DNA of 64,000 nt from Jiangella muralis (GTDB lineage Bacteria > Actinomycetota > Actinomycetes > Jiangellales > Jiangellaceae): positions 413,125 to 477,124 of the forward strand of contig NZ_KQ434752.1 in the NCBI RefSeq assembly GCF_001270745.1, written 5' to 3'. Positions 1 to 16,329 of this stretch are shown piece after piece. Position 1 is the first letter of the stretch. Every line of letters starts with the position of its first letter. The notes beneath the pieces were generated by a model, which did no database searches, had not been told where the DNA came from, and saw only the letters and a program-made list of their open reading frames with translations. A program made the translations under genes and the position numbers.

Positions 1-156
1 GAGCCAGCTCAAGCGTCGCATGAAGCGTGAGTCCAGGTGGGCGAGTCCCCCCACGGAGTTGCCCACTCACCCCGCGCGTGCTGGCGCGCCGTGCTGCTCG
101 GAGACGTCGTCGGAGGACTACGTCGTGAATGCCATCCATGCCCTTCCGGCCATCGT

Positions 157-1335: not shown

Positions 1336-1341
1336 CGCGGA

Positions 1342-1560
1342 TCACCCCGCCCCAGGCTCGCGCTGCGCGGCCAGCCAGGTCCGCACGTCCGAGACCGCGA
1401 ACTTGAGCCGCTTCCCGAACCGGAACGCGGGCGGACCCTTCCCGTGGGTGCGCCAGTCGTAGATCGTCGTCACCGGGACACCGAGATACTCGGCCAGCTC
1501 CTCGACGTCGATCAGTGGTTCCAGGCCCCACGGGCCCGAAGACTCCGCCATGTCGTCCAT
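1342..1560 (-). CDS. Excisionase-like helix-turn-helix protein (Xis)
   Basis: This small protein (about 72 residues from the ATG at 1560) carries a MerR/Xis-type winged helix: a helix ending in EELAEYLGV, the turn PVTTIYDWR, and the typical wing GKGPPAFRFGKRLKF. Proteins of this fold bend att DNA and bias the recombinase toward excision. It sits immediately upstream of the integrase gene, the usual xis-int order. An in-frame ATG at 1602 gives a longer version, but the added 14 residues look unlike the family. Confidence 0.75.
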   Translation of the reverse strand: MDDMAESSGPWGLEPLIDVEELAEYLGVPVTTIYDWRTHGKGPPAFRFGKRLKFAVSDVRTWLAAQREPGAG

Positions 1561-1741
1561 GCCGGCCAGGTGCGTGGCCGACACCCTGACGACCAGGGGC
1601 ATCGACAGCCGACCCGCAGCAACCGAGCACGACGCGACGAAGCGCCGCCGAGCGGCAGGGTTTGTGATGGGTTTTCGATGGGCGGTTCAAATTCCACCTA
1701 CCAGGAAGGTCCTGGGAACCGCCAACTACCAGGACCGATCC

Positions 1742-1785
1742 GTCGGGCTGACAGGATTTGAACCTGCGACCCCCTGACCCCCAGT
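1742..1785. repeat. Left attachment site (attL) of the AICE: 44-bp copy of the tRNA-Pro 3' half
   Basis: The 44 bases are identical to 14518-14561, which run from the anticodon loop to the 3' end of the intact tRNA-Pro gene. Identity stops sharply at both edges. This is the usual core of an element that integrates into a tRNA 3' end. The surrounding gene-free stretch 1561-1989 also holds two copies of CTACCAGGA (near 1697 and 1724), the first followed by AGGTCCTGG to form an inverted repeat, and the arm-type repeat at 1877. No coding region is visible in it. Confidence 0.9.
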
Positions 1786-1876
1786 TGCCCTCAACTGCAT
1801 TTCGCCAGGTCAGCAATCTGCGCGCCGCGTGCCACAGGAAGGCCCTGCGTGCAGGACGTGCATGCGGGTGACCCGC

Positions 1877-1899
1877 GGTGGTCCCCATCTGGTCCCCGC
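1877..1899. repeat. 23-bp arm-type direct repeat, left copy
   Basis: The sequence is GGTGGTCCCC followed by ATCTGGTCCCCGC and is identical to 14411-14433. It contains an internal duplication of TGGTCCCC. In the excised circle the two 23-mers would flank the att core at 91 and 84 bp in direct orientation. That geometry fits integrase arm-binding sites. Confidence 0.6.
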
Positions 1900-1989
1900 G
1901 CGCCATGTCCCTTGTAGTCGCCCCCGGCCGGTGCTGGACACACCGGGCCGGGGACTTGATCCCAACCTGAGCTAAGCAGGAGGAGACCC

Positions 1990-2541
1990 ATGGTCACCGT
2001 ACCGAAGCCGAAGAAGCGAGAGATCATCACCCGTGCACCGTTCGTGCATCCCGACGTCGGGGAGATCGTCGCGTTCCATGACGAGGAGGGCCCGACCATC
2101 GATGTGACGATCCGCCCGGAGGGCTCGGAGGAGTACGCGCACTTCGCCCTCACGGCGATCGATGCGCACCAACTGGCCGACGAGCTGCATCGCATCGGCA
2201 CCATCGTTCAGCGGGCCGGCTGGACCCCAACCATCCTCACGGACGCGCGGACGTACTTGCCGGGCATGACCGATGAGCAGATCATCGAGCGCCTGGACCG
2301 TCTCTACCGCCGCTGGGGCGGGCTCGTGATCGGGTTCCGCGGTCGCCTGGATCGGGCCGCCGGCCGTTCACTGGCGGTCGAGGTCCACATGGAGACGCTG
2401 GACCGGTCGATGACGCTGGTCGAGGAGCATGCCGAGACGCTGTCGGGCATCCCGGAGCTGGCGGACCGACTGAGCGAGCTGCGCTCGTCGCTGGAAGACG
2501 TGCGGAATCTGTACATCGCGGAGCAGGAGCGCCAGCCGTGA
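1990..2541 (+). CDS. Hypothetical protein, first cargo gene of the AICE
   Basis: I do not recognise a family for this 183-residue protein. The ATG has a strong ribosome-binding site (AGGAGGAG, 1979-1986). The N-terminal half is a mixed alpha/beta segment with many charged residues. The second half (about 115-180) is predicted mostly helical with heptad-like leucines and could form a coiled coil. No signal peptide or membrane segment is visible. It overlaps the next gene by 4 bases (GTGA) and is probably translated together with it. Codon use is typical of the chromosome. Confidence 0.75.
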   Translation: MVTVPKPKKREIITRAPFVHPDVGEIVAFHDEEGPTIDVTIRPEGSEEYAHFALTAIDAHQLADELHRIGTIVQRAGWTPTILTDARTYLPGMTDEQIIERLDRLYRRWGGLVIGFRGRLDRAAGRSLAVEVHMETLDRSMTLVEEHAETLSGIPELADRLSELRSSLEDVRNLYIAEQERQP

Positions 2542-2855
2542 CCGGGCCTGTCGACCGCAATGCGGCGTGCTCGGTGAAGTGGTGCGACGAGACCGGCACG
2601 CACACGGTGCACCGCAAGTACCTGGCGTCGGTGAAGGGCGGGCTCCGTGACGGCGGCCTGGTCGGCGTGAACCTCGCCCAACGCGTCCAGCCGCGGGCGT
2701 CGGTGTGCGTCGAGGTGACGGTCACCACGCCATGGGCCTCCACTGCTGACTATCTGTTCGCAGCCGCATCCGTGCCGGAGATCACGTCGGCGCTGACCGA
2801 AGCCGCCGAACGCGCGACAGAGCTGGGCGGGACGGTCCGTAACCAGCGTGACTGA
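2538..2855 (+). CDS. Hypothetical small protein
   Basis: This protein of 105 residues starts with GTG inside the stop region of the preceding gene (GTGA overlap). An N-terminal stretch has two cysteines (AACSVKWCDETGTHTVHR) that could form a small knuckle. The rest is a beta-rich segment ending in a helical tail. I see no known domain. Its coupling to the upstream gene suggests a two-gene cargo unit. Confidence 0.65.
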   Translation: MTGPVDRNAACSVKWCDETGTHTVHRKYLASVKGGLRDGGLVGVNLAQRVQPRASVCVEVTVTTPWASTADYLFAAASVPEITSALTEAAERATELGGTVRNQRD

Positions 2856-2945
2856 TAGCTCGCGCCACGCATGAGCAGCCGGCTCTCCCCCGATCACTGA
2901 CGAGCCGGGCGAGAGCCGGCCGCTCGCGTGGCAGGAAGGACACTC

Positions 2946-3218
2946 GTGGACGACAAGCAAGCGTCAGGGTATCCTGACAGTGGAATGGTGATCGCGGACA
3001 GCGCCCGCAAGCACAGCGTGTCCGACGAGGACATGGTGCACGCGGCACGACATGCGATCACCGAAGTTGGGCAGGGCGACCGTGTTCTGCTCATCGGGGC
3101 CGGGGTCGACGGCAACCTGCTGGAAGTCGTGGTGCTCGACCCGGACACCGATCCGGTGATCATCCACGCGATGGCTCTCCGGCCGAAGTTCTACGCCTAC
3201 TTGCCCTGGGGGCGGTGA
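2946..3218 (+). CDS. Putative toxin of a toxin-antitoxin-like pair
   Basis: The protein (about 90 residues) has the pattern SDEDMVHAARHAI, then a strand with LLIGAG, then LLEVVVLD, ending in IIHAMALRPKFYAYL. Short actinobacterial proteins with this layout, in particular the C-terminal HAM-x-LRPKFY motif, often lie beside small DNA-binding proteins and resemble BrnT-like toxins; I recall this from family patterns and have not tested it. The GTG at 2946 is chosen because AGGAAGG lies 6 bases upstream; an in-frame ATG at 2985 is the alternative. The next gene follows within 6 bases. Confidence 0.55.
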   Translation: MDDKQASGYPDSGMVIADSARKHSVSDEDMVHAARHAITEVGQGDRVLLIGAGVDGNLLEVVVLDPDTDPVIIHAMALRPKFYAYLPWGR

Positions 3219-3223
3219 AGCAT

Positions 3224-3505
3224 ATGGCAAACAAGCCCGACACGGACCAGCGAGCCGCCGACGCCGACGCATGGCTCGACGGACTCGACCCCGCCACCAC
3301 GCCGGCCGAGGACACAGCGGACCTCAAGGCCGTCGCCGAGGCCGCAGACGAGGTCGCCGTAGCGGAACGACGAGTCCGCGCCGCCGTCCAGGCAGCTCGT
3401 GCGAACGGCCGGTCCTGGGCCCGCATCGGCCTCGCACTCGGCGTTAGCCGTCAATCCGCCCACGAGCGCTACGGCTCACGAGCCGACACCAAACGAGCCT
3501 CGTAG
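3224..3505 (+). CDS. Helix-turn-helix protein, putative antitoxin partner
   Basis: This acidic protein of about 93 residues has a long helical N-terminal region rich in Ala, Asp and Glu. A C-terminal helix-turn-helix follows, with the sequence SWARIGLALGVSRQSAHERYG. The position directly after the toxin-like gene and the DNA-binding C-terminus suggest an antitoxin/autoregulator. A GTG at 3215 would overlap the upstream stop (GTGA) and add three residues; the ATG at 3224 gives a more natural N-terminus. Confidence 0.6.
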   Translation: MANKPDTDQRAADADAWLDGLDPATTPAEDTADLKAVAEAADEVAVAERRVRAAVQAARANGRSWARIGLALGVSRQSAHERYGSRADTKRAS

Positions 3506-4119
3506 ACGCGACGCTCCACACGCGTCGAGCCCAGCGCCCGTCCCCACTCTGCGGCGTCGTCCTCATAGCTGCCGGTCGTTGGCCGGAGCGCAGGGGGGTC
3601 AAGGGTGGCGCTTGCGCCATCGCGCAGCGACGTCAAGATGGTTCGCCCCTCGTTGATTCAGGGCGACCTGCCCGGTCCGTATGGCGAACGATCTTGACGC
3701 CCTTGATGCCCGGAGTGAGGCCATAAGAATGGCTGCGATGAGGGGGACGACGCTCCGTGAGATATCCGCGTGGCCTGAGTCGGTGTCGGCCAGCTCGTGC
3801 ACACGCCCGGGCCCGCGCCCGGAACGGCCGCCAGGCCGCACGCCCGGCGCGGGCCCGGGCGTGCTGCGGCGCGCTTGCGCGCCGCCTTGACGGAGTACAG
3901 AAAGTTCTCACCACACCCGCCTTTAGGCACGCCTCAAGGCGCCCAGCGTCACCAGGTGTCCTCCCGGAGCGTTCACTTGTGTCGCCGAACTCTGGCCGGC
4001 CACGAACCGGAGAACGCGTCGGATGCGTGGAAGCCCGCCAGGTGAGATTGCACCTTGCAACTACCCTGCGCCGTTACGTATCCTGCGATTTCATAGCTTG
4101 GACCAATTTGGGGGGTCTC
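3506..4119. other. Gene-free stretch with possible HTH-gene remnant
   Basis: No gene is convincing here. A short plus-strand reading frame from 3681 encodes about 30 residues (ALDARSEAIRMAAMRGTTLREIS) resembling the first helices of a small AICE helix-turn-helix protein, then degenerates where the palindromes at 3802-3885 begin. It may be a fragment disrupted by the palindrome cluster. Confidence 0.35.
3802..3885. repeat. Cluster of two long perfect palindromes
   Basis: An 18-bp perfect inverted repeat (arms 3802-3819 and 3846-3863, loop 26) is followed at once by a 9-bp hairpin with a two-base loop (3866-3885, arms GCGGCGCGC and GCGCGCCGC). There is no T-run, so a simple terminator is not the only option. 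A cis site for transfer or for lagging-strand initiation is possible. Confidence 0.7.
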
Positions 4120-5415
4120 ATGCGAATACGAGCGGCAATAACGGCCACCTTGCCTGCCGCACTAGTGGTGACAGCTCTCGCAACGACGTCGAGCGCCGTT
4201 CGGGAGTCGGTACCCGGTGTGAACGCGTCAGGGAACGAAGGAATGGCAGCCGAGTCTTCAGTGAACCTAAAGGAGCAATACACTGCCCTTCAGGCATCTG
4301 CGGAGCTCACTGCCTCCTCCAAGATCGCTGAAGGCGGCCAGGGTGCAGAGGTGGCCACTGTTCATTGGAGCGCTGAAGACGAAGCGCTTATCGTCGCCTA
4401 TAAACCCGATCCGAATGCAGACGCTCAAGCCATCGAAGACTACAAGGATTCGGTTCAGCAGCATTTCAATGATGCTGGCGTTGGGCACTTAATCGAGCAG
4501 ATGGAAGTCTCTTATACCGACTCTGAACTTCTCGCGGCCGCAGAGCGTCTGTCGGAAACGGACACGGCCTGGGCAGGGGATCTGGCGGACCTAATTACGA
4601 TTATCGGACCCGATCCCATGAATTCGGCAATATATCTCGCCACGTCTGTCGAGGCTCCAGGACTTGCAGAGTTGGCATCCACCGCTTCCGGGTATCCGAT
4701 CCGTGCGGATGTTTCAGGCCCGATCATGTCAGCGAATCGTGTCATCGACACGTCACCCTGGACCGCAGGGAATGCGCTGACGGACATCCAATCTGACGCT
4801 GGCCGGGCAGGTGAACACGTTTGCACCCAGGGATTTGGCTGGATTTCGTGGGCCACAGGCAACGAGATATCGAGCACTGCGGGGCATTGCTTCGCGCTCA
4901 ACGCGAGCGTTTATCAAGGAAATCCGAATCAGAGAATTGGATTTGTTAGCCAGAATCACTTCGCGGGAGCAACTGCTGACGCTGCAGCCATTACATTAAG
5001 GAGCGGAGTTCCTGACACTGGATTCTGGTTAGGACGAGCAAGCACTGAGGTCCGACTTCCCGTCCATGCTGCCGATCCGAAGCCGGACTCAACGGGAACG
5101 TATGTGTGTGTTAGCGGCGCGACAACGGACGAGCGTTGCGGCTCTATTACGCTCAGAAACCAGATCCTAAGGTACAGTGACGGAACCCGCCATTTACGGA
5201 TGTCGTGCGCGAAAATGGATCCGGGTCCACGAGGCGGTGACTCCGGAGGACCAGTGTACGCCGGGTGGGTCTCGGCGGAGTGGAATGTTGCTTACGGACA
5301 ACTTTCGGCATTTATCGTCCCCGGCAGCGATGGCAAACCAAACCAGTGCGCGGCAATATTCTCACCGGCGGTCGAGATCTCTGGGGCTTTACAGGCCACA
5401 ATTATGCTCGACTAA
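4120..5415 (+). CDS. Secreted trypsin-like (S1 family) serine protease
   Basis: This 431-residue protein has a Sec-type signal peptide (about 1-25, ending ATTSSA), a prodomain-like region (about 45-205) and a chymotrypsin-fold protease domain. The catalytic triad is visible: H256 in TAGHC, D287 in TADAAAITL and S375 in GDSGGP. Cysteine spacing fits three disulfides (C235-C257, C330-C340, C363-C410), as in streptogrisin-like enzymes. Base composition is clearly less GC-rich than its neighbours, and four TTA leucine codons occur (residues 124, 293, 304, 359), which is rare in such genomes and a sign of transfer. The ATG at 4120 is chosen because it opens the signal peptide; GGGGG lies just upstream. 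It is likely cargo acting outside the cell. Confidence 0.85.
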   Translation: MRIRAAITATLPAALVVTALATTSSAVRESVPGVNASGNEGMAAESSVNLKEQYTALQASAELTASSKIAEGGQGAEVATVHWSAEDEALIVAYKPDPNADAQAIEDYKDSVQQHFNDAGVGHLIEQMEVSYTDSELLAAAERLSETDTAWAGDLADLITIIGPDPMNSAIYLATSVEAPGLAELASTASGYPIRADVSGPIMSANRVIDTSPWTAGNALTDIQSDAGRAGEHVCTQGFGWISWATGNEISSTAGHCFALNASVYQGNPNQRIGFVSQNHFAGATADAAAITLRSGVPDTGFWLGRASTEVRLPVHAADPKPDSTGTYVCVSGATTDERCGSITLRNQILRYSDGTRHLRMSCAKMDPGPRGGDSGGPVYAGWVSAEWNVAYGQLSAFIVPGSDGKPNQCAAIFSPAVEISGALQATIMLD

Positions 5416-5443
5416 GCGTTAATACCTTGCGCCGCATCGCTCA

Positions 5444-5809
5444 TCATGCAATGACAATGTCGTGGGATGCAATGAACGTCTTTTCGCGAGCGCAGTCATG
5501 ATTGGGAGGCGGCGGGCCAAGTCCGCCGCCGATCCCGATCCGTTGACCCTCGGTTGCAACGATTGAACCACTAGTGTCCCGGAGAACGGCCAAGCCCAAA
5601 CCGTCCGCCTCAACTGTCCAGCCGTAGGGCCAAACGACTGCAGCAATCGCTCCCGGGTCGGAGCCCTGCCGTATGGCCAAGCAGTTGTTCGCAGTCACCA
5701 CCAGCACCCCCCATAAGCGCGCCGCCGCCGAAGCACGGCTCGCGTTCTCCTCCTGGGTCATGAGCCGAATCTCTCGGCGCCGATCGTCGGCGTCCGGGTG
5801 GAGGTTCAT
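5444..5809 (-). CDS. Hypothetical small domain protein
   Basis: This 121-residue protein starts at the ATG preceded by GAAAGGGG. The C-terminal half has a repeating beta pattern: LVVTANNCLAI, then AVVWPYGWTVEADGLGL, then GSIVATEGQRIGIGGG. Short actinobacterial proteins with the pattern CL...VVWP.G...V...G..I.IGGG are often lipoproteins or exported, but this copy shows no signal peptide. It faces the protease gene tail to tail. Function unknown. Confidence 0.6.
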   Translation of the reverse strand: MNLHPDADDRRREIRLMTQEENASRASAAARLWGVLVVTANNCLAIRQGSDPGAIAAVVWPYGWTVEADGLGLAVLRDTSGSIVATEGQRIGIGGGLGPPPPNHDCAREKTFIASHDIVIA

Positions 5810-6371
5810 TGCTGGTGCCCCTTTCTCGAAACTCGTGAGCTGCCAGGCAAGACGACGTGCGTAGGAGCCGCACGACCCTAGCGTCACCGAGGAAGCGCCG
5901 CCTCTATGAGTTCGCCTGTCAACTTCCAGCTTCGCACATCGCGGGCAGAGGAAGGATGCCTGACGCTGGAGCTGCGCCACCGCCGCCGCGCCTGTGCTGA
6001 AGACCGCATCCGCATCGCGAAAGACACCGGCTGGCCAACCTGCCGCTGCACGACCTGGACCAGAACCGGATCTAGTGCGCCCTCGTCGCCTAGCCTGCGA
6101 ATTCACCGCCTGGCTGTAGGTTCATCGCCAGCACCTTCCTCGATGCGCTCGGGTCGGCAGCACGCCGGCGAGGGGCGGCGCGCAACGCCAAAACCGCAGC
6201 AAGCGTGGGGTTCGATGGATCTGGTTCGTGCCGTTCTAGCGTCGCACACTCGCTGAGGTCCGTGGATATGTGTCTCGGCGGGGAGAGACTCGTGCCGGCA
6301 CGTCGCCCATCGGACCGTCGCAGAACGATAATCGCAGCGGAAGAAGCGGCCGACGAGCGGATGCACCGAGC
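5810..6371. other. Gene-free stretch of cargo DNA
   Basis: No reading frame in this 560-bp stretch has a recognisable domain, a ribosome-binding site or the third-position GC pattern of a real gene. It may hold decayed coding DNA. Confidence 0.4.
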
Positions 6372-6929
6372 CTACGGGCCTGCGGCCGCTCGGAGGATGG
6401 TTGTGCGGATGGTCGCCCACGGTAGCTGCCGTCCGGGTGCACTGCGCGGAGCGTGCAAGGGCCAGACATCGTCTCCGACGACAAGGTGAACGCCGACGCG
6501 TTGGAGTGTGTCGACATGACCTCGCCACGCCGGATGCGCCGCATGGGCGGCGTTGATCCGGGGGAAAACGACGATCGGCGGTGTGCCGTTGCCGATGGCC
6601 TCGCTCACGCCCGTGAGTGCGTGATTGTCGGCTATTCCGAGTGCGAGCTTGGCAACGGTGTTGGCCGTCGCGGGAACGACCGCATAGCAGTCGACTTGCG
6701 GATGGGGACTTGCCTCGGTGGGCAGGCGGGCTTGGTCGCGCACTGCCAGCCCGGTGGCCTCCTGGATCTCGTCGAACTCCCCCGATGCGCGTAGCCAGGT
6801 TGCGGCGGTTGGCGTGAGGGTGACGGCGACGGTCCAGCCGTCGGCCTGCATGGGCTCGATCAGCTGGGTTCGGAGATCTTCGATGCCGCCGGCCGCGCAG
6901 GCGACGAGTCCGAGGACGGGGCCGCTCAT
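6372..6929 (-). CDS. Flavoprotein of the phosphopantothenoylcysteine decarboxylase-like fold
   Basis: This 185-residue protein has a Rossmann-like flavodoxin fold of the HFCD family (PPC decarboxylase, lantibiotic decarboxylases, flavin prenyltransferase). Visible hallmarks are the nucleotide-binding start LGLVACAAGG, the central PATANTVAKLALGIADN segment and the strand PPIVVFPRIN before a helix. Its substrate cannot be read from sequence. It overlaps the upstream XRE regulator by 4 bases, so the two are translationally coupled, a pairing common in actinomycetes and their elements. The role could be redox or metabolite sensing, which is inference. Confidence 0.8.
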   Translation of the reverse strand: MSGPVLGLVACAAGGIEDLRTQLIEPMQADGWTVAVTLTPTAATWLRASGEFDEIQEATGLAVRDQARLPTEASPHPQVDCYAVVPATANTVAKLALGIADNHALTGVSEAIGNGTPPIVVFPRINAAHAAHPAWRGHVDTLQRVGVHLVVGDDVWPLHAPRSAPGRQLPWATIRTTILRAAAGP

Positions 6930-8140
6930 ACGGCTCGGCAGCGTTCGGCGAGTTGCATGACCTCGGACTGTCGGCCACCCATGGTGACGGGTGAGCGTCG
7001 GTAGATCGCCCGGACGGTCTCGCGGACGGCGGGGTTGTGGCGGACGAACTGTGGCGCCTGTTGCTCAGCCGTCAGCAGCGCGTCGACGGCTTCGTCGTCC
7101 TGGGCAAGGTGGCTGTAGGCGCGCGCCACGTCGATGCGGTGACAGACCTGCCGCTCGATGGGCAGCGGGCTCGGGTCGATCCGCGGGCCGTGCTCGGCTA
7201 CGTAGGCGACGTCTCCGAGGTCCAGAGCTGTGGAGACGCGATGCACGTGGACGTTGGTCGGGCCGAAGGCGGTCTGCCAGTGGTTCGCGTCGTGGCCCAG
7301 TCGGGCCGCTGCTTGGGTCGCTCGATCGAGGAGCGCAGTTGTTGTCGGGCGGTCCTGCCGACGGGCAGCGGCCACGGCCATGCGTAGGTCGAGCATGCCG
7401 AGCAGACTGAGCGCTTCGGGCTCGCCAGCTCGGACCGTGCCCGCCAACCAGCTGCGGGCCGCGTCCCCGACCTGAAGAGCATCGTCGTAGCGGCCGACTG
7501 ACAGGAGCGCGTGAGTGCCGGCGCGAGCGGCGGAGGCGAGTGCGAGTGGGTCTTCGGACTGGCCGGCCGCGCTCATGGCTCGCTCGGCTGCGATCCACGC
7601 AAGGTCGACTTCGCCGATCTTGCTGAGTGTGGTGGCGGCGAGGTGGTGCGCTCTGGCGGACACCCGCCAGCCGGCTCGGGTTCCCTCCGCTTCGAGCGCT
7701 TGAGCAGACGCCAGCAGCTGGGGCAGGACGGCGATGGTTCGGCCGAGTCCGCCGTTCTGGTAGTCCTCCCAGGCCGTCACGGTCATTCGCTCGGCGTGCG
7801 TGAGGTCGATCTGCACGACCGCGGTCTGGTTGAACAGCAACTGTGAGAGCCGGCGTGGGCTCATCAGCGCATCGCGGATGGCGGGCACGTCGTCATTGGC
7901 GCGGTCGTCCTCGACGAGGACCGGTTGGCCGATGAGGTCGGCCAGGGTGACCCGTAGGGCTCGCGCCAACTCGGTGAGGACGTCGAGCCGCCGGATCTCG
8001 CGCTCACCGCGCTCGATCTTGCTGAGCCAATCCTCCGAGCGGCCCACGAGGTTCGCGAGCACGGATTGGGTCAGGCCGCGCCGCACTCTGAAGAACGCGA
8101 TGCGCTCTCCGATGCTGAGGGTGTCCCCTGCTCCACGCAT
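6926..8140 (-). CDS. XRE-family transcriptional regulator with TPR-like C-terminus
   Basis: This 404-residue protein has an N-terminal Cro/CI helix-turn-helix (about 9-65; core LTQSVLANLVGRSEDWLSKIERGER) followed by about 320 residues of Ala/Leu-rich helical repeats of the TPR type. The layout resembles peptide- or ligand-sensing actinobacterial regulators. It is the first gene of the pair with the flavoprotein. The ATG at 8140 lies exactly 7 bases after a TATCGT -10 element, so the mRNA is probably leaderless. A palindrome overlaps the predicted -35 region, consistent with autoregulation. Confidence 0.85.
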   Translation of the reverse strand: MRGAGDTLSIGERIAFFRVRRGLTQSVLANLVGRSEDWLSKIERGEREIRRLDVLTELARALRVTLADLIGQPVLVEDDRANDDVPAIRDALMSPRRLSQLLFNQTAVVQIDLTHAERMTVTAWEDYQNGGLGRTIAVLPQLLASAQALEAEGTRAGWRVSARAHHLAATTLSKIGEVDLAWIAAERAMSAAGQSEDPLALASAARAGTHALLSVGRYDDALQVGDAARSWLAGTVRAGEPEALSLLGMLDLRMAVAAARRQDRPTTTALLDRATQAAARLGHDANHWQTAFGPTNVHVHRVSTALDLGDVAYVAEHGPRIDPSPLPIERQVCHRIDVARAYSHLAQDDEAVDALLTAEQQAPQFVRHNPAVRETVRAIYRRSPVTMGGRQSEVMQLAERCRAV

Positions 8141-8147
8141 AGTGTCA

Positions 8148-8193
8148 ACGATAGGTCAGCAGGTCAGTCACGCACCCGGACAGTTTGTCCGGG
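8148..8193 (-). promoter_or_regulatory. Promoter and palindromic operator of the XRE/flavoprotein pair
   Basis: On the minus strand a -10 TATCGT (8153-8148) lies 7 bases before the ATG at 8140. A perfect palindrome, CCCGGACA-GTT-TGTCCGGG (8175-8193), covers the -35 position. Its placement suggests binding by the XRE protein itself. Confidence 0.55.
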
Positions 8194-8266
8194 CACCTAC
8201 CGGCGAGGCGGGTTCTGCTGGTGGTGTGACAGCCCGCATCAACCAACGAAGCACGCCTGCCCATGG

Positions 8267-8596
8267 TCACTCGCGGCCAGCGGCAAGCTCGTCGACGCGT
8301 TCAGTCAGGGTCCGAACGGCCTCTTCAAGGCGATCGAGCCGCGCCTGGGTGTCGTCGGGTCGACGATCCGCGCCGCTCACGTCATCAGCGACGAAGACGC
8401 CCTTGCCCTGGCGACCGATGATCAGTCCGTCGCGGCGCAGCTCGTTGAGTGCGTCCCGGACGACGGTGCTGGACACGCTGTGCTTCTCGCGCAGCTGGGT
8501 CATGGACGGCAGCTGGCTTCCCGGCGGCAACTCCCCCGCCGCGATCCGCGCGCGCAAATCGTCCGCGAGCTGCCGGAACGCCGGTCCAGTCGCCAT
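8267..8596 (-). CDS. GntR-family repressor, KorSA-like
   Basis: This 109-residue protein carries a GntR winged helix (about 5-72: FRQLADDLRARIAAGEL, SVSSTVVRDALNELRRDGLI, GKGVFVAD) and a C-terminal coiled-coil segment (LDRLEEAVRTLTERVDEL). In pSAM2, KorSA of this family silences replication and transfer. Here it stands divergent from the transfer operon with palindromic operators between. The ATG at 8596 has GGAGG upstream; the reading frame extends further up, but that part covers the operator region. Confidence 0.85.
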   Translation of the reverse strand: MATGPAFRQLADDLRARIAAGELPPGSQLPSMTQLREKHSVSSTVVRDALNELRRDGLIIGRQGKGVFVADDVSGADRRPDDTQARLDRLEEAVRTLTERVDELAAGRE

Positions 8597-8627
8597 CGCC
8601 AGCCTCCATCCGCGGACACCTGTTGCC

Positions 8628-8638
8628 GCACTAAGTGC
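8628..8638. promoter_or_regulatory. Second operator for the GntR repressor (short palindrome)
   Basis: GCACT-A-AGTGC shares both half-sites with the larger palindrome at 8686-8705 and lies 32 bp before the gntR start. This is consistent with autoregulation. Confidence 0.5.
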
Positions 8639-8680
8639 ATCTGGTTCGCAACACCCTATCGCTCGGGTGTGCAAACCATC

Positions 8681-8710
8681 TTGACGCACTATGTCGACAT
8701 AGTGCATTCT
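8681..8710 (+). promoter_or_regulatory. Promoter of the transfer operon with a 20-bp perfect palindromic operator
   Basis: A -35 TTGACG (8681-8686) and a weak -10 CATTCT (8705-8710) flank the perfect palindrome GCACTATGTCGACATAGTGC (8686-8705), which fills the spacer. A repressor bound there would block polymerase. The GntR protein beside it is the obvious candidate. Confidence 0.65.
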
Positions 8711-8775
8711 TAAGACGTCCCGCGCACCTCCGAGTGCGGGATCGGGGAGAGTCCCCGGCTACGAAAGGAGAGGTC

Positions 8776-9180
8776 ATGGCGACCTATGCAGTGGACAGCA
8801 AGCGGCAGCAGATGACGGCGACCGGTGTCGTCAACTCGGTGCATGAGTGGGAGGACACTCCGGAGGGTCGTCGGCAGTCGGAGCGGCAGGCGGTGGATGA
8901 GGAGTCGCGGCTGCCGTTGTGGTCGGTGGAGGTCAATTACCGGACGGTGTCGTTCGATCGGGAGTTGACGGCGCGGGCGCAGGTGACGGTCCCGGCGCCG
9001 TTGAAGCCGGAGATCGCGGACTATTCACCGATCGAGTTCGGTGACCTGGTGGCGTCGGCGCGGGCGACGAAGACGGGCCAGCTGGTGGAGTCGTGGCGGG
9101 CCGGCGGGATCGCGTCGCACACGCCGCCGCGCAAGGACGCCGGCAAGACCAGCGCCGGCAGCGGCGAGAAGGCGGCCTGA
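8776..9180 (+). CDS. Conserved AICE protein of unknown function
   Basis: This 134-residue protein is first in the transfer operon; AAAGGAGAGG precedes its ATG. A central segment (LWSVEVNYRTVSFDRELTAR, then VTVPAPLKPEI) looks like a compact beta domain, followed by a Lys/Ala-rich tail. Proteins of similar size and position occur in many AICEs just upstream of the translocase gene. A role in activation, replication or transfer is likely by context only. Confidence 0.7.
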   Translation: MATYAVDSKRQQMTATGVVNSVHEWEDTPEGRRQSERQAVDEESRLPLWSVEVNYRTVSFDRELTARAQVTVPAPLKPEIADYSPIEFGDLVASARATKTGQLVESWRAGGIASHTPPRKDAGKTSAGSGEKAA

Positions 9181-9182
9181 CG

Positions 9183-9707
9183 ATGACCGTCATCGAGGTC
9201 CCGACCGATGCGTACGCGGCGGCTGACTGGCTCGCTGGCCGGCATCCGTGGGTGCGGCAGCTGGTCGAGCGGATCGCCGGCAGCATCGACGCGCACCCCG
9301 GCTGGCTGGACGTCGTCACCGCGGCCGTCAACGGCCAGCTGGCGGACGCGGCCGCGTGGGAGGCGTACGAAGCCCGGCACCCGGCCCCGGACGACGACGA
9401 CGCGTTCTGGGAGTGGCACGCACACGGCCCGAAGACCTCGGCCGAGGTGCAGGCGTTCGGCGTCATGTCCAGCGGAGAGAAGAACCTCGTCCGCCTGGTC
9501 GCCACCCTCGGCGGCCGGGTCGCCTGGTCCCCACATGACGTGTCGTTCGACCAGCGCGGCGCGGCTGTCCTCGCGGACTGGCTGGCGATCGTGCACGCCC
9601 AGCTGCCGGCGTCGCTGTACCCGGCCACGAGTGATGACGCGCTGATCGTGCGGCTGGCCGCCGTGAGCGACGCGGTCAACGGTGAGGTTCGCGCCGTCTC
9701 GCGATGA
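9183..9707 (+). CDS. Hypothetical AICE protein
   Basis: This 174-residue acidic protein starts 2 bases after the previous stop. It is predicted mainly alpha-helical, with several Trp (ADWLAG, AFWEWHAHGP, VLADWLAIV). I recognise no catalytic motif, signal peptide or membrane segment. Operon position suggests a transfer- or maintenance-related function. Confidence 0.65.
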   Translation: MTVIEVPTDAYAAADWLAGRHPWVRQLVERIAGSIDAHPGWLDVVTAAVNGQLADAAAWEAYEARHPAPDDDDAFWEWHAHGPKTSAEVQAFGVMSSGEKNLVRLVATLGGRVAWSPHDVSFDQRGAAVLADWLAIVHAQLPASLYPATSDDALIVRLAAVSDAVNGEVRAVSR

Positions 9708-9793
9708 GACCCCACCGGGGACGGGTGACAGGCCTAGGAAACCAACCCCGTCCCCGGTGGCCCCAATCAACACCCCGAATGGAGGGGATTGGT

Positions 9794-9958
9794 GTGTCCA
9801 ACCCTACGACCCGGCGACTGCCCCTCGCCGCTCTCGGCGTCGTCCTCGCCCAGCTGTTGACCGTTGCCGCCCTCGTGGCCGGCGCGGACGAGGTCCAAGC
9901 GCAGCGGTCCGACGCCGTCCGTGACGCCTCGGTGACCCGCTGCGGTGACCGCCCATGA
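9794..9958 (+). CDS. Small single-span membrane protein (Spd-like by position)
   Basis: About 54 residues long, it starts at the GTG that follows GGAGGGG with 6-base spacing. One hydrophobic segment ([20 protein letters not shown]) near the N-terminus is followed by a short charged tail. Small membrane proteins encoded before traB in Streptomyces elements are often spread proteins that help intramycelial plasmid movement; the analogy rests on position and topology only. It overlaps the next gene by 4 bases (ATGA). Confidence 0.55.
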   Translation: MSNPTTRRLPLAALGVVLAQLLTVAALVAGADEVQAQRSDAVRDASVTRCGDRP

Positions 9959-10125
9959 AGCAGCCCCTAGCCGTGGTGGTCGCGTGCTCCGGCTGCGGCC
10001 GCCTGGTCGCCGCCATCAAGGCGTGGTTCCACCCCGGTACCGGCGACACCGTCTGCGACTCCTGCCACGCCGCCGCCCACGCCCGGCACGCCGCCCTGAC
10101 CGCCGTTGAAGGACTGCTTCGATGA
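9955..10125 (+). CDS. Small zinc-ribbon-like protein in the transfer operon
   Basis: The frame encodes 56 residues between two ATGA overlaps, one with each neighbour, which strongly supports translation. It has two paired cysteines, CSGC at 11-14 and CDSC at 34-37, about 20 residues apart, as in a small treble-clef or ribbon zinc site, followed by an Ala/His helix. Function unknown. A DNA- or protein-binding helper of the translocase is possible. Confidence 0.65.
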   Translation: MKQPLAVVVACSGCGRLVAAIKAWFHPGTGDTVCDSCHAAAHARHAALTAVEGLLR

Positions 10126-11606
10126 GCCCACGGCCCGAACTGAGCGCGAGCGTCATCCAGGCCGTCGTGACCTTCGTGCAGAACCTGTTCGATCACGACT
10201 CGCTGATCCGGCGGCTGCTGCGCGGCCTGGGCTGGGTGACGCTGACGCCACTGATGCTGCTGCACAAGCTCCCCCAGGTCTTCGCCGCCGGGGCCGTGCT
10301 GCTCCTCGCCTACAGCATGCTCGGCGCTGGCGGCCTGGTCCTCATGCTTACGGTCCCGATGGTCGGTTGGGTGGTGTGGCGGCTCGCGCACCCCGAGTCC
10401 GCGGAACGCGTCGCCGCGCGGGTGCGGGGCCGGTGGCGGTACCGGAGGATCTACCGCAAGCACTGGCCCACCGTCGCCGCCGGCTGCGGCCTCACCGTCG
10501 TCGCTGGCCCGTTCGGCCGCCAGGTGGCGCCCGAGCTGATCGGCGTGACCGCCCACCCAGCCGCCGACGCCGTGCACGTGCGCATGTTCGCCGGCCAGTC
10601 ACCGGCCGACTACGCCGACCGGGCCGACGCCCTGGCGCACGCGTTCGGCGTGACTCAGGTCCGCGTCCGGAGTGATCAGCCCGGCACGGTGACGTTGTTG
10701 TTCAGCACCGGGGACATGCTCACCGACCCCATTCCCGCGATGACGCTGGACGCATCGGACGTGGACTTCGAGGCGCTACAGGTGGGGTTCACCGAGGACG
10801 GCTCCCCGTATCGGCTGCGGCTGCTCTACAGCCACGTCCTGACCGTCGGCGCGACCGGGTCCGGGAAGGGCTCCGCGCTGTGGTCGACCGTGCGTGCGCT
10901 CGCCCCGGCCGTCCCGTCCGGGCTGGTGCAGCTGTGGGGCGCGGACCCGAAGGGCGGCATCGAGCTGGCGATGGGCCGCGGGCTGTTCTCCCGGTTCGCC
11001 GCCGACGACGAGCCCGGCGACATGGTCGACCTCGTCACCGAGGCCGCCGAACTGGTCCGGGCACGCTCGAAGCGGCTGCGCGGGCACTCCCGCAAGCACA
11101 CACCGACGCCGGGTGAGCCGTTCGTGGTGCTGATCATCGACGAGCTGGCATTCCTGTCGGACTACCAGGACGACACCAAGCTCAAGCACCAGTTCAACAA
11201 GTCCCTGAAGGTCGTCCTGTCCCAGGGCCGCGCCGCCGGTGTTTCCGTGCTCGCGTTCGTCCAGGACCCCCGCAAGTCCGTCGTCGACGCCCGCAACCTG
11301 TTCCCCACCAAAGTCGCCCTCCGCCTCGATACCGCGTCCGAGGTCGAGATGGTCCTCGGCAAGGACGCCTGGGAACGCGGCGCCCACGCCGAGTCGATCC
11401 CCGAGGCTCAGCCCGGCACCGGATACGTGCTCGTCGACGGCGACCCCACCCCGGCCCGCATCCGGTTCACCTGGGTCACCGACGACGACATCCGCGCCAT
11501 GGCCCGCGACTACCCCGCCGCGCCGCCGCGTCACGGCTTCACCGTCGTCACCGACACCGACGACCAGGACGACGCCAAGGGCGACGACACAGGGGCGGTC
11601 GCGTGA
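10122..11606 (+). CDS. traSA: TraB/TraSA-type FtsK-like DNA translocase
   Basis: This 494-residue protein is the main transfer gene of the element: a hexameric ATPase that moves double-stranded DNA between mycelial cells. The N-terminus has two membrane segments (about 50-72 and 73-88). The FtsK/SpoIIIE motor domain has Walker A GATGSGKGS (243-251), Walker B VVLIIDE (335-341) and a later QGRAAGVSV segment. Length and layout match TraB/TraSA proteins. It is coupled by ATGA overlaps on both sides. The C-terminus is short and acidic, so the DNA-recognition winged helix may be reduced or diverged. Confidence 0.92.
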   Translation: MSPRPELSASVIQAVVTFVQNLFDHDSLIRRLLRGLGWVTLTPLMLLHKLPQVFAAGAVLLLAYSMLGAGGLVLMLTVPMVGWVVWRLAHPESAERVAARVRGRWRYRRIYRKHWPTVAAGCGLTVVAGPFGRQVAPELIGVTAHPAADAVHVRMFAGQSPADYADRADALAHAFGVTQVRVRSDQPGTVTLLFSTGDMLTDPIPAMTLDASDVDFEALQVGFTEDGSPYRLRLLYSHVLTVGATGSGKGSALWSTVRALAPAVPSGLVQLWGADPKGGIELAMGRGLFSRFAADDEPGDMVDLVTEAAELVRARSKRLRGHSRKHTPTPGEPFVVLIIDELAFLSDYQDDTKLKHQFNKSLKVVLSQGRAAGVSVLAFVQDPRKSVVDARNLFPTKVALRLDTASEVEMVLGKDAWERGAHAESIPEAQPGTGYVLVDGDPTPARIRFTWVTDDDIRAMARDYPAAPPRHGFTVVTDTDDQDDAKGDDTGAVA

Positions 11607-13027
11607 GCACGCACGCGCTGAGTCACACGGAGCTGCTGTTCCAGCTGGCCTCCCTGTCCCGCAGCAGAGCCGGCGAACAGGCCCGCGGGTGCGTCAACCC
11701 CATCCGACTCACCGGCTCCTCCACCACTGTGCACGCGGCTACGGGTGAGGTCGTACGCACCTACTCCTCCGACGACGAACCGGACGGGCACACCTACGTC
11801 CGCTGCGGCAACCGCCGCGCCGCGGTCTGCCCGTCCTGCAGCAGGGAGTACAAGGGCGACGCGTGGCACCTGCTGTCCTGCGGCCTGGCCGGCGGCAAGA
11901 CCGTCCCCGAGACGGTGGCGCAGCATCCGGCGACGTTCGCGACGTTCACCGCGCCGTCGTTCGGGGCCGTGCACCGCCACACCCGACCGACGAACGGCCG
12001 CACGTCGCCGTGCCGGGCACGACGCGATCGCCCGCGCTGTCCGCACGGCCGGCCGCTGTCGTGTGTGCGGCGGCACGACGCCGACGACCCGCAGGTAGGT
12101 CAGCCGCTGTGCTTCCAGTGCTACGACTACACCGCCCACGCCGCCTGGCAGTGGTGGGCACCGCAGCTGTGGCGGTACTTCACCATGGCGCTACGCCGCC
12201 GCCTCGCCCGCACCGCCGGCATGACGATGAAGGCGTTCACGAGCGCGGCCAAGGTCTCCTACACCAGAGTCGTAGAGTTCCAGGCGCGCGGCGTCGTGCA
12301 CTTCCACGTCGTCATCCGCCTCGACGGACCCGACGGCCCCGCCACCCCGCCACAGCTGGACCTCACGGTGACCGAGCTCGAGGACGCCGTCAGGCACGCC
12401 GCCACCCACGCGCACAAGGACGTCCCGATCCCCGGCGGGCAGACACTCCGGCTGCGATGGGGGAAGCAGCTCGACCTACGCACCATTACCCCCGGCGCCG
12501 GCCGCGACAACCAGGCCGGGCCGGCGCACCCGCACCAGGTCGCCGCCTACCTCGCCAAGTACTTGACGAAGAGTACGGAGGACTTCGGGCTGCCCGTTGC
12601 CGGGAAGCTGTACAGCGCGAACCATGCCGCCAAACACGGCGCGACCCCGCACGCCGTCCGACTGATCAAGGCCGCGCAGCAGCTCGTGCCCATCCACGAC
12701 GACTACGAGCGCTTGAAGGACAGGTACGCCACCCTCGGCTACCGGGGCCACCCCATCACCAAGAGCCGCGCCTACTCCGTGACGTTCGGCGCGCTCCGCA
12801 CCGCCCGCCGGCACTGGCGGCAGCGCCGCGCCCAACTCCCGGCCAACGCAGCCGTCCGAGACGTCCTCGACGTCGACCAGGCCGAGCACGACACCACGGC
12901 GACAACCGTCGTCGTCGGTGACTGGCGCTACGCCGGACGCGGCTACCTCGACACCGCGGCGGCCGCCAACGCGACCCGCTCGGCCAACCTCGCCCGCATC
13001 CGCCGCGCCGACGACGTCACCAGCTGA
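11603..13027 (+). CDS. repSA: RepSA-like rolling-circle replication initiator
   Basis: This 474-residue protein is the autonomous replication initiator of the excised element. The HUH metal-binding motif is HFH (233-235, in GVVHFHVVIRLDG), and candidate nucleophile tyrosines lie in VAAYLAKYLTKS (Y316, Y320), as in RepSA of pSAM2. N-terminal paired cysteines (CPSC 76-79; C170, C173) suggest a zinc-binding module. It overlaps the translocase gene by 4 bases and precedes xis and int, the conserved pSAM2 order. It appears intact. Confidence 0.9.
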   Translation: MSTHALSHTELLFQLASLSRSRAGEQARGCVNPIRLTGSSTTVHAATGEVVRTYSSDDEPDGHTYVRCGNRRAAVCPSCSREYKGDAWHLLSCGLAGGKTVPETVAQHPATFATFTAPSFGAVHRHTRPTNGRTSPCRARRDRPRCPHGRPLSCVRRHDADDPQVGQPLCFQCYDYTAHAAWQWWAPQLWRYFTMALRRRLARTAGMTMKAFTSAAKVSYTRVVEFQARGVVHFHVVIRLDGPDGPATPPQLDLTVTELEDAVRHAATHAHKDVPIPGGQTLRLRWGKQLDLRTITPGAGRDNQAGPAHPHQVAAYLAKYLTKSTEDFGLPVAGKLYSANHAAKHGATPHAVRLIKAAQQLVPIHDDYERLKDRYATLGYRGHPITKSRAYSVTFGALRTARRHWRQRRAQLPANAAVRDVLDVDQAEHDTTATTVVVGDWRYAGRGYLDTAAAANATRSANLARIRRADDVTS

Positions 13028-13054
13028 TCAGACCGAAGCGCAGGGAGACCGACC

Positions 13055-13255
13055 ATGAGAAGACCGAACCTGGGCCGCTTGCTCACCACTGAAGAGACAG
13101 CGCGGCGGCTCCGTGTCGACCCGTCGACGGTGCGCCGCTGGCGTCGCGACGGTGTCGGCCCACGCCACCTCAAGATGGGCAGCGTGTACCGCTATCCGGC
13201 GAATGAGCTGGAAGCCTGGATCGCCGCGAGCATGGGCCGGCGCGTCGCATCATGA
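13055..13255 (+). CDS. xis: Excisionase (Xis) of the AICE
   Basis: This 66-residue basic protein is almost entirely a MerR/Xis-type winged helix: LLTTEETARRLRVDPSTVRRW, then a wing with GVGPRHLKMGSVYRYP. It directs excision together with the integrase. AGGGAG precedes the ATG. It overlaps int by 4 bases (ATGA), giving coupled synthesis. Confidence 0.88.
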   Translation: MRRPNLGRLLTTEETARRLRVDPSTVRRWRRDGVGPRHLKMGSVYRYPANELEAWIAASMGRRVAS

Positions 13256-14490
13256 CAGCCCCGGAGAAGCTGCCGCCGCTGGGCGTTCGGCTCACCGTCG
13301 ACATCGAGCCCGTAGAGCGCCAGAAGGGCATGGTCTACAAGGCTCGTGTGCGTTGGACGGACCCGGTCACCGGCAAGCGCGACGGCTGCAAGAGAGTGTT
13401 CGATAGTGAGGATGCCGCCGCCGCGTGGGTGGATCGCATGACACGCACTGCCGCGACCGGCCTCGATCCGGGCCAGACGTTGAAGGACTACGTCGACAGC
13501 ATCGGTGATCGCTGGGCGCGCAAGATCGACACGACCTCGACACTCGATGGCTATTCGGCGGGTCTGAGATTGCGCGTGGTTCCGGCGATGGGCCACCTGC
13601 CGGTGAACATGATCACGGCGGGGCTGATCGACCGCGTCATCGATGAGTGGGAGGACAAGGGCATCGGCCGGTCTACGATCAAGAACACCATCGCTCCGCT
13701 GGTCCTGGTGCTCAACGAGGCCAAGCGGGACGAGCTGATCAGCCGCAACCCAGCCGACGACCGCGCGCGCCGGACCGCCGTCGGCCGACGAACGGGCGAC
13801 GACGAAGAAGAGGCGCCGAATCCTCGCGACTATGCGCTGCCCGACGTCGCCGCACTCGAAGAGCTGGTGGCCGAAGTGGTCAAGGCTGGGCGGCATCAGT
13901 GCTGGGGCGACATGGTGACGATCCTGGCCACCACGGCGATGCGGATCAGCGAGGCGTCCGGCCTGGATGCGCGGTATGTGGACTGGGAGAACGGGATCAT
14001 CCGGGTCGAGTGGCAGCGTTACCCCGGCCGGGGCGGCCTGGTCCGCAAGCGCACCAAGGGCCGGCGTCGCCGGAAGGTGCCGATCACCGAACCGTTGGTG
14101 CCGACCCTGGAGCGTCTGATGAAGGGTCGGAAGCCTGATGATCGGCTGCTGCGTGGTCCCCGCGGGGGCGTGATCACGACGGCGACCCTGCGCGATGCGA
14201 CTCGCTGGGACGAGCTGGTGACGCGCCTTGGTCATCCGACGCTCGTCCGTCACGGGCTACGGCACACCGCGTTGACGTGGATGGCTGACGCCGGCATCCC
14301 GCTCGACGTCCTGCAGAAGGTCGCCGGCCACCAGTCGCCTGACGTGACGTCGCGGTACCTGCACCCGGACCTTTCGGCGTTGAAGGCCGCCGGGGAGTCC
14401 TTCTCGGCCTGGTGGTCCCCATCTGGTCCCCGCCGACCCAAGCTGACGATCGTGAAGGGAGGTGATGCGAGACGAGAAAACCCCCGCTGA
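13252..14490 (+). CDS. int: Tyrosine integrase of the AICE
   Basis: This 412-residue tyrosine recombinase catalyses integration into the tRNA-Pro gene, whose 3' end is 26 bases downstream. An AP2-like N-terminal arm-binding region (about 10-65) and a core-binding domain (about 75-175) precede the catalytic domain with R231 (TAMRISEA), H334 and R337 (HGLRHTA), H360 (AGHQSPD) and Y369 (SRYLHPD). The last 25 codons (WWSPSGPRR) are written by the 23-bp arm-type repeat, so the gene and the att region overlap physically. It appears functional. Confidence 0.93.
   Translation: MTAPEKLPPLGVRLTVDIEPVERQKGMVYKARVRWTDPVTGKRDGCKRVFDSEDAAAAWVDRMTRTAATGLDPGQTLKDYVDSIGDRWARKIDTTSTLDGYSAGLRLRVVPAMGHLPVNMITAGLIDRVIDEWEDKGIGRSTIKNTIAPLVLVLNEAKRDELISRNPADDRARRTAVGRRTGDDEEEAPNPRDYALPDVAALEELVAEVVKAGRHQCWGDMVTILATTAMRISEASGLDARYVDWENGIIRVEWQRYPGRGGLVRKRTKGRRRRKVPITEPLVPTLERLMKGRKPDDRLLRGPRGGVITTATLRDATRWDELVTRLGHPTLVRHGLRHTALTWMADAGIPLDVLQKVAGHQSPDVTSRYLHPDLSALKAAGESFSAWWSPSGPRRPKLTIVKGGDARRENPR
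14411..14433. repeat. 23-bp arm-type direct repeat, right copy
   Basis: Identical to 1877-1899 and embedded in the 3' coding end of int. It lies 84 bp from the att core, against 91 bp on the left side. Confidence 0.6.
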
Positions 14491-14515
14491 CCTGCGTCAA
14501 CGAGGGCTGATCACA

Positions 14516-14592
14516 TGGTCGGGCTGACAGGATTTGAACCTGCGACCCCCTGACCCCCAGTCAGGTGCGCTACCAAGCTGCGCCACAGCCCG
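14516..14592 (-). tRNA. tRNA-Pro (anticodon GGG)
   Basis: The reverse complement folds as a full cloverleaf. The acceptor stem is CGGGCTG/CAGCCCG, the D arm contains GCGC...GCGC, the anticodon arm is CCTGA-CTGGGGG-TCAGG with GGG at 34-36, and the T arm contains GGTTCAAATCC. The discriminator A and CCA are encoded (14519-14516). The gene is intact; the AICE inserted at its 3' half and restored it through the 44-bp core. Confidence 0.95.
14518..14561. repeat. Right attachment site (attR) of the AICE
   Basis: This copy of the 44-bp core overlaps the tRNA gene from the anticodon loop to its 3' end and matches 1742-1785 base for base. Confidence 0.9.
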
Positions 14593-14661
14593 TGGCTACC
14601 CCGGCCACGAGGGCGGCGGAGCGATGAACAGTGTAGCGCCTCCGGGGCACCGCTCCGGACA

Positions 14662-14796
14662 TCAGGTCCGGGGCCGGCGGCTGTCGTAGTCGGGGCGGAC
14701 GGGTTGGGGGCGGACGTCCCCGTGACGGGCGGCCCAGAGGGCGGCCGAGAGCGCCCACGCCAGCAGCAACATCGTCACAACCACAACCGCTCCCAT
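14662..14796 (-). CDS. Possible small membrane protein
   Basis: The frame from the ATG at 14796 encodes 44 residues: one hydrophobic span (AVVVVTMLLLAWALSAALW) and a basic, proline-rich tail. An upstream ATG at 14883 gives 73 residues with a second hydrophobic stretch. The ribosome-binding site is weak (GGTGGCGG). It lies divergent from the MocR gene. The remainder of 14593-14897 is AT-richer promoter DNA without other genes. Confidence 0.4.
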   Translation of the reverse strand: MGAVVVVTMLLLAWALSAALWAARHGDVRPQPVRPDYDSRRPRT

Positions 14797-14851
14797 GATC
14801 AACCGCCACCCGAAGAACAAGACCAATCGAACAACTACCTCCACCAAACAC

Positions 14852-14897
14852 CAGTCCACTCCTTCCAACAAGATGCCAATCATGGAACACTGGACTG
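14852..14897 (+). promoter_or_regulatory. Inverted half-sites before the MocR gene
   Basis: CAGTCCA (14852-14858) and TGGACTG (14891-14897) are exact inverted copies, the second touching the start codon at 14898. MocR/GntR regulators commonly bind repeats in their own promoters; binding here is inference. Confidence 0.35.
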
Positions 14898-16325: not shown

Positions 16326-16329
16326 ATGC

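Follow-up and report, generated by a model that had tools for sequence, protein, structure and literature searches.

The 64,000-nucleotide window analysed here, from the 7.27-Mb draft genome of Jiangella muralis (contig NZ_KQ434752.1, positions 413,125 to 477,124), holds near its left end a 12.8-kb segment that terminates in a proline tRNA gene. The question raised by this locus is whether the segment is a complete actinomycete integrative and conjugative element (AICE), and at which sites its integrase and replication protein would act. Our comparisons indicate that it is very probably a complete AICE of the RepSA type, integrated at tRNA-Pro (GGG) and carrying predicted integrase arm sites and a predicted replication origin. 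The element itself is ordinary for actinobacteria and the new part lies in the mapped sites.

The segment is bounded by a 44-bp direct repeat of 100% identity, whose right copy is the 3′ half of the tRNA-Pro (ggg) gene, and a second exact repeat, of 23 bp (100% identity), is found at 1877-1899 and 14411-14433. The boundary features are as follows.

1742-1785: distal attachment (att) core, 44 bp, which doubles as the right border of the adjoining int2 island
14518-14561: tRNA-side att core, 44 bp, 3′ half of tRNA-Pro
14516-14592, minus strand: tRNA-Pro (GGG), by tRNA call and Rfam RF00005

Apart from this tRNA, an Rfam scan of positions 1-17000 gave nothing above threshold. AICEs frequently integrate into tRNA genes, and an integrase gene with att repeats at a tRNA 3′ end, as in AICEs of the RepSA class, is what we found. 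In three relatives (G004, G010 and G007) the sequence left of 1785 joins 14518 directly, with a 44-base overlap corresponding to one copy of the core; in G010 the left flank aligns over its final 372 bases only. An earlier note on this DNA had claimed exact attachment repeats in the tRNA gene and a complete AICE with visible boundaries and backbone genes, and had proposed a comparison with relatives lacking the element; the repeats, the three sites with a single core, the Pfam matches and the open genes bear this out. The tRNA-side core is flanked on its left by GCTGACCTG and the distal core on its right by CAGGTCAGC (window 14470-14517 and 1786-1820), and in the circular form these two would stand as an inverted pair around the core; the pair is also present in G009. 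Short matches, of 44 bp in the best five of the 24, link the core 1742-1785 with 24 phage records, of which 23 are from mycobacteriophages, and the tRNA-Pro core seems to be used by other mobile DNA as well.

The 23-bp repeat is probably the arm site of the integrase. It holds two GGTCCCC half-sites 11 bp apart (GGTCCCC-N4-GGTCCCC), and in the 64-kb window the exact pattern occurs at the two AICE ends only.

1880-1897, plus strand: predicted arm site GGTCCCC-ATCT-GGTCCCC, beginning 138 bp to the right of the point where the distal core starts
14414-14431, plus strand: predicted arm site of the same sequence, inside the last int codons

The two ends co-vary, with half-sites ending in CCCC in our element, GGTCCG..GGTCCG in G009 and GGTCCAA..GGTCCAA in G005, and among these three elements the best match of each left arm is its own right arm. 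Related integrases (E ≤1e-60) were found in 13 of 393 genomes of the class, J. muralis included, and the nine from outside the genus all lie beside a tRNA-Pro GGG gene and all have the exact arm pattern. The motif thus also accompanies integrases in other families. G091 and G349 each carry a second core whose arm lies about 140 bp inward, as in the J. muralis element. In the taxonomic family to which G155 belongs, 56 of 394 genomes have an integrase match at E 1e-50; 28 new loci among the matches listed there, together with 12 others, made up a sample of 40 int loci, and the arm pattern with at most one mismatch was present at 24 of them compared with 9 of 1664 control windows. A tRNA-Pro gene lies within 300 bp of the int stop at 26 of the 40 loci, 24 of which carry the pattern at three mismatches or fewer, the other two being those of G005 and G009. 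At the residue before the ARVRW motif or its variant (Int residue 30), 23 of the 24 pattern-bearing loci have K or R (one was not read), and G005 and G009 have W. A tie between residue 30 (K/R versus W) and arm specificity would be a lead rather than a proof, the two W cases being both from Jiangella. Among the matches listed in the literature on arm-type sites, or on GGTCCCC with integrase, no title or abstract opening gave this motif.

Part of the same comparison speaks against the arm-site assignment. When five distant elements were extended to 80-100 kb for the left-arm search, a left arm was found in two and not in G155, G137 and G017; no arm accompanies the distal core in G001 or the nearer distal core in G017; and four or more mismatches were counted at 10 of the 40 int loci, namely the two Jiangella variants and eight loci that lack a tRNA-Pro within 300 bp.

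The second site is a non-coding element in the left half of the AICE, which is likely the rolling-circle origin.

3804-3916, plus strand: predicted origin, with hairpins, then CTTGA (3886-3890), then a subfamily-specific tail
3536-3632, plus strand: second conserved non-coding piece near the origin candidate, found in some relatives

The segment 3804-3916 recurs at 79-90% identity in the Jiangellaceae AICEs compared, with a shorter second copy in G003 (76%). A covariance model built from 14 copies gave, with stricter filters, matches in 56 of 393 genomes of the class and 22 of 137 genera. RepSA genes were then mapped in the 12 genomes of the genus and in 44 other genomes with a model match, 39 of which have RepSA. 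Seventy-five of the 109 model matches lie within 15 kb of a RepSA gene, where about 1.6 would be expected, all 75 on the RepSA strand and 69 upstream of it; without the 14 training copies the proportion is 61 of 95. In Jiangella itself 33 of 34 RepSA genes have a match (13 of them training copies), or 20 of 21 once the training copies are left out, two rows of one gene having been merged. The pentamer CTTGA is exact in 69 of the 72 sequences read, and a stem of at least 5 bp stands just 5′ of it in 65. The tail that follows is GTA-N-GAAA-like in all 43 sequences whose RepSA scores at least 440 bits (29 of 29 without training copies), and ends GCA-like in all 29 whose RepSA scores below 440 bits. 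These 72 sequences come from the 75 RepSA-near matches, two in G006 and one in G003 having been left out; 14 of them were training copies of the model (13 from Jiangella plus L215, L215 and L116 being one and the same locus), and three RepSA scores, two high and one low, are sums of split rows. Among 21 plasmid records matching RepSA, five were read: the model reached E <0.02 in four and E 0.42 in the fifth, and the tail pattern (at most two mismatches) was found on the Rep strand in four, the E 0.42 record included, and once (L279) on the opposite strand as well. In PMC3218068, RepSA is assigned to the pC194/phiX174-like nick class, and RepSA proteins are predicted to share a nick mechanism, one subfamily recognising its own origin regions. 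Split tails are what this prediction of subfamily-specific origins leads one to expect, our two score classes not being equated with the subfamilies of that paper. In the literature found on pSAM2 attP, origin and nick, no title or abstract opening gave this motif or element.

Several results count against the origin assignment. No RepSA lies within 15 kb of 34 of the 109 model matches, and outside Jiangella a match within 15 kb is present at only 40 of 129 RepSA loci, even though the 44 genomes were chosen for having one. None of the six RepSA loci of Knoellia, Terrabacter, Aeromicrobium and Nocardioides matched at E 0.01 (best E 0.43). In three of the 72 sequences CTTGA reads TTTAA. The tail rule was adjusted after viewing the sequences, the first patterns having left 20 of 72 unclassified, and the 72/72 split is thus descriptive. 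Folding beats shuffles in some copies and not in others (z from -5.84 to +0.41), and covariation in the consensus folding is slight, the origin claim not being based on it. The low rate outside Jiangella could reflect either diverged origins missed by the model or many RepSA elements using another site. Strong matches without RepSA within 15 kb occur at G004:C4:506013, G007:C91:64289 and G009:C1:6391955, the first with an int2-like gene about 6 kb downstream; such RepSA-distant matches may possibly mark rep-less elements.

Both sites belong to an element whose right half carries the AICE backbone, with the gene order traB-rep-xis-int up to the tRNA as read from Pfam.

8267-8707, minus strand: GntR regulator (Pfam), KorSA-like by position, possible start at 8596
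8776-9180, plus strand: Pra-like by position only, kept in AICE relatives, without Pfam or NCBIfam match
9183-9707, plus strand: o2, AICE-conserved protein, by comparison with relatives
9704-9958, plus strand: small membrane-like protein by eye, Spd-like by position only, without family match
9955-10125, plus strand: o4, small CxxC protein, from its translation and relatives
10122-11606, plus strand: TraB/TraSA-like FtsK DNA translocase (Pfam FtsK/SpoIIIE, E 1.2e-6)
11603-13027, plus strand: RepSA rolling-circle replication initiator (Pfam PF20199, E 1.8e-144)
13055-13255, plus strand: Xis, HTH_17 (Pfam, E 5.5e-14)
13252-14490, plus strand: Int, tyrosine recombinase (Pfam phage integrase, E 7.9e-24), with K30 in the N-terminal, presumed arm-binding region

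The int, xis, rep and traB-like genes are all open. RepSA qualifies as an AICE replication protein through PF20199, its score against the NCBIfam RepSA equivalog being 337 bits, below the cut-off of 700. The FtsK/SpoIIIE domain (PF01580) is present, weakly, at 28.5 bits against a cut-off of 24, and this poor traB-like match (46.6 of 800 bits in NCBIfam) is a point against a complete element. The catalytic residues, which the earlier note had described as intact, can be picked out by inspection of the translations, with the presumed R, HxxR, H and Y of a tyrosine recombinase in Int, a presumed Walker A/B pair in the FtsK-like protein, and presumed HUH and tyrosine motifs in Rep. No Nudix match at E 0.01 was found among the 17 AICE proteins scanned with Pfam.

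The left half, which the same note had set apart as a cargo half (1990-8140) unlike the backbone, turned out to be mixed.

1990-2541, plus strand: c1, AICE-conserved protein without Pfam match, recurring in other AICEs
2538-2855, plus strand: c2, AICE-conserved protein, recurring in other AICEs
2928-3218, plus strand: c3, kept in the G009 AICE, by comparison
3215-3505, plus strand: c4, small helix-turn-helix (HTH)-like protein (weak match, below cut-off), kept in the G009 AICE
4120-5415, plus strand: variable cargo, S1-type serine protease, GC about 57%, signal peptide and pro-region by eye
5444-6106, minus strand: cargo-slot open reading frame (ORF) without match, whose true start may be internal
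6372-6929, minus strand: flavoprotein (Pfam, relatives)
6926-8140, minus strand: XRE-type HTH regulator with a long C-terminal region (Pfam, relatives)

Both c1-c2 and the segment 3536-3916, where the probable origin lies, recur in other AICEs, and the true cargo is confined to one low-GC slot of about 3.9-6.3 kb, here occupied by the serine protease. Across the nine elements read, gene content differs in the slot between the origin candidate and the flavoprotein or GntR gene, most of the larger genes having a GC of 0.53-0.60; elsewhere the slot contains AAA and AbiTii genes, GmrSD-like and HEPN genes, or several genes, some of them large, without any match. Three of ten slot proteins from related AICEs have PADLOC matches. 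The protease was considered as a defence gene and rejected, having no PADLOC match. It shows a weak alpha-lytic-like match, with the triad motifs GHC and GDSGGP visible and the Asp not firmly placed, and from its signal peptide, seen by eye, it would be a secreted cargo protein. No homologue above 39% identity was found in the other genomes of the genus, any match at all being limited to 3 of the 12 genomes, J. muralis included.

Replication and integration genes do not follow the same relationships. In six further AICEs of Jiangella, identity is 88-93% for rep and 82-90% for traB, but their integrases are only 24-26% like ours. Five of them sit at tRNA-Phe (J. rhizosphaerae, J. endophytica and J. 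aurantiaca), tRNA-Arg (G003) and tRNA-Lys (J. anatolica); for the sixth, in G009, no tRNA was found within the stretch examined. The tRNA-Pro AICE of G005 is the converse case, with int at 84%, rep at 65% and traB at 42%. This distribution points to an exchange of the rep/tra module between integrase modules. A phage derivation of the integrase clade was dismissed, its phage matches being weak only (5 records, 23-30% identity), as were its ten plasmid matches; the whole element retrieved 24 phage records, by short matches only.

At this tRNA the nearest occupied site is that of G009 (about 85% identity), which has another int end and core on its left, while G005 holds a different AICE. In J. 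muralis a second integrase-xis pair lies in the left flank.

157-1335, minus strand: int2, integrase gene of the adjoining ~95-kb island and not part of the AICE
1342-1602, minus strand: xis2 of that island, 31-35% like the AICE Xis by sequence comparison

A third core copy lies at C2:320075, about 94.8 kb from window 1742. The chromosomal anchor is about 116 kb from the tRNA here versus about 7.6 kb in G002, which fits 94.8 + 12.8 kb of inserted DNA. In G004 the int2 end adjoins the tRNA and the opposite island end is 86 kb off; in G005 it is 5.6 kb off. The distal-core flank is common to J. muralis, G004, G005 and others, and the interiors of our island and that of G004 are unaligned except for short matches. 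The open frames inside the island look metabolic by eye, not by search. From its sequence, the locus is an accretion array in which the AICE stands nearest the tRNA, the left flank being the int/xis end of an island of about 95 kb that shares the att core of the AICE; accretion of tandem elements at one tRNA is already known (PMC3218068, PMC9513070). Close to these borders, a PIN-domain-like and HTH gene pair (a toxin-antitoxin pair by eye, G000 C2:318701-319692) borders the distal core on its outer side here and on its inner side in G005. A sequence of about 115 bp (G000 C2:309280-309397, L045 ~3281-3398), which resembles a small interspersed repeat, has at least 19 further copies in its own genome (78-91%) and none in relatives among the matches listed. 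In G007 (C58:158453-174317, L038) an insertion of about 15.7 kb is found 5′ of the tRNA-Pro, between the tRNA and the conserved right flank.

This arrangement raises the possibility that the moving unit is larger, the island and the AICE travelling together by way of the distal core C2:320075, with the AICE providing transfer in cis. The three core copies run in one direction, the island has its own int2/xis2, no RepSA, FtsK or origin-model match was found inside it (no search was aimed at relaxase or type IV genes), and cis-mobilisation of tandem elements has been proposed for AICEs (PMC9513070). However, the match at the distal core extends for no more than about 32 bp here (35 in G004 and G005) and leaves out the part with the anticodon, and the G004 island with the same ends stands without an AICE beside it, so that we consider joint movement improbable. 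A decayed or silent AICE, with its boundaries intact and regulation or transfer lost, is also unlikely, if somewhat less so. Decay is common among AICEs (PMC9513070), traB is split over two frames in the G009 copy, and only int fragments are left at this tRNA in G001, G003 and G011; here, however, the backbone genes are open and both cores and both arm sites are exact.

The assignment of the two sites has its own alternatives. The element at 3804-3916 could be a single-strand origin or a transfer (clt) locus instead of the double-strand origin, since a hairpin-rich, strand-specific element fits a single-strand origin as well and many RepSA loci outside Jiangella have no match. Yet its tail changes with the RepSA score class, which is expected of a site read by Rep and not of one read by the host, and we regard this alternative as unlikely, although it is the one that deserves most weight of those considered here. 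That the arm motif is a mere by-product of a conserved Int C-terminus is hardly credible: it does lie inside the int ORF in J. muralis and in four of the nine distant relatives, but it is outside the ORF in the other five, and it is repeated at the opposite element end in our element, G009, G005, G091 and G349.

We thus retain a complete RepSA-type AICE, for which the ability to excise, replicate and transfer is plausible. Integration would proceed by tyrosine recombination of the 44-bp core carried by the circle with the 3′ half of tRNA-Pro (GGG), so that the tRNA stays intact, with the Int N-terminal domain presumably binding two tandem GGTCCCC half-sites per arm. Int and Xis would excise the circle, RepSA would nick CTTGA (3886-3890) beside the hairpins, recognise the 3′ tail and start rolling-circle replication, and the FtsK-like protein would move double-stranded DNA into the recipient, cargo apparently being swapped in the one low-GC slot that separates the origin from the flavoprotein/regulator genes. 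A broader reading would be that many Actinomycetia RepSA AICEs share the hairpins and a common CTTGA nick, followed by a 3′ tail that is replaced with the RepSA subfamily, and that a tRNA-Pro integrase clade reads tandem GGTCC-N2 half-sites one helical turn apart, with a specificity that changed within one genus and residue 30 as the leading switch candidate, both codes being readable from sequence. We hold this joint reading tentatively, and place it slightly below an even balance, since outside Jiangella the element accompanies only 40 of 129 RepSA loci.

What the analysis adds to the earlier note is the arm sites, the origin element, and int2/xis2 at 157-1602 with the ~95-kb island sharing the core. 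The comparison yields two sites, one a predicted arm site for the integrase and the other a likely origin of replication, the latter at 33 of 34 Jiangella RepSA elements and at a minority elsewhere; origin-like loci without nearby RepSA may be elements borrowing replication. With no claim as to activity, two testable recognition sites should be of real use to specialists.

In regard to known systems, the AICE families of Frankia and Streptomyces likewise show shared rep/tra with differing int and site, tandem elements at one tRNA and variable cargo, whereas covarying arm pairs and an origin element traced across RepSA subfamilies are not reported in the available parts of PMC3218068 and PMC9513070. 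The earlier description of our element as pSAM2-type holds for the RepSA family and the gene order, but not for the arm sites or the RepSA equivalog cut-off. With pSAM2 of Streptomyces ambofaciens it shares the RepSA family (after which Pfam PF20199 is named), an FtsK-like Tra and a GntR regulator, as well as a tyrosine Int with Xis (PMC9033027). Unlike pSAM2, it has no Nudix (Pif) match among the 17 proteins scanned, and its arms are unlike the pSAM2-like repeats quoted for pACPL in PMC3364876; both features set it apart from the pSAM2 type in the narrow sense. A 27.8-kb circular record of Streptomyces formicae (L277, NZ_CP071873.1) holds repeated, concatemer-like copies of one pSAM2-like AICE of about 10.4 kb. 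The pACPL element of Actinoplanes sp. SE50/110 differs in its pSAM2-type arms, as opposed to GGTCCCC-N4-GGTCCCC, in having a Nudix gene and in host and cargo; as described in PMC3364876, it resembles the Jiangella element in being a 13.6-kb AICE with int, xis and repSA, with a 43-nt att in a proline tRNA gene and arm-type repeats flanking the core.

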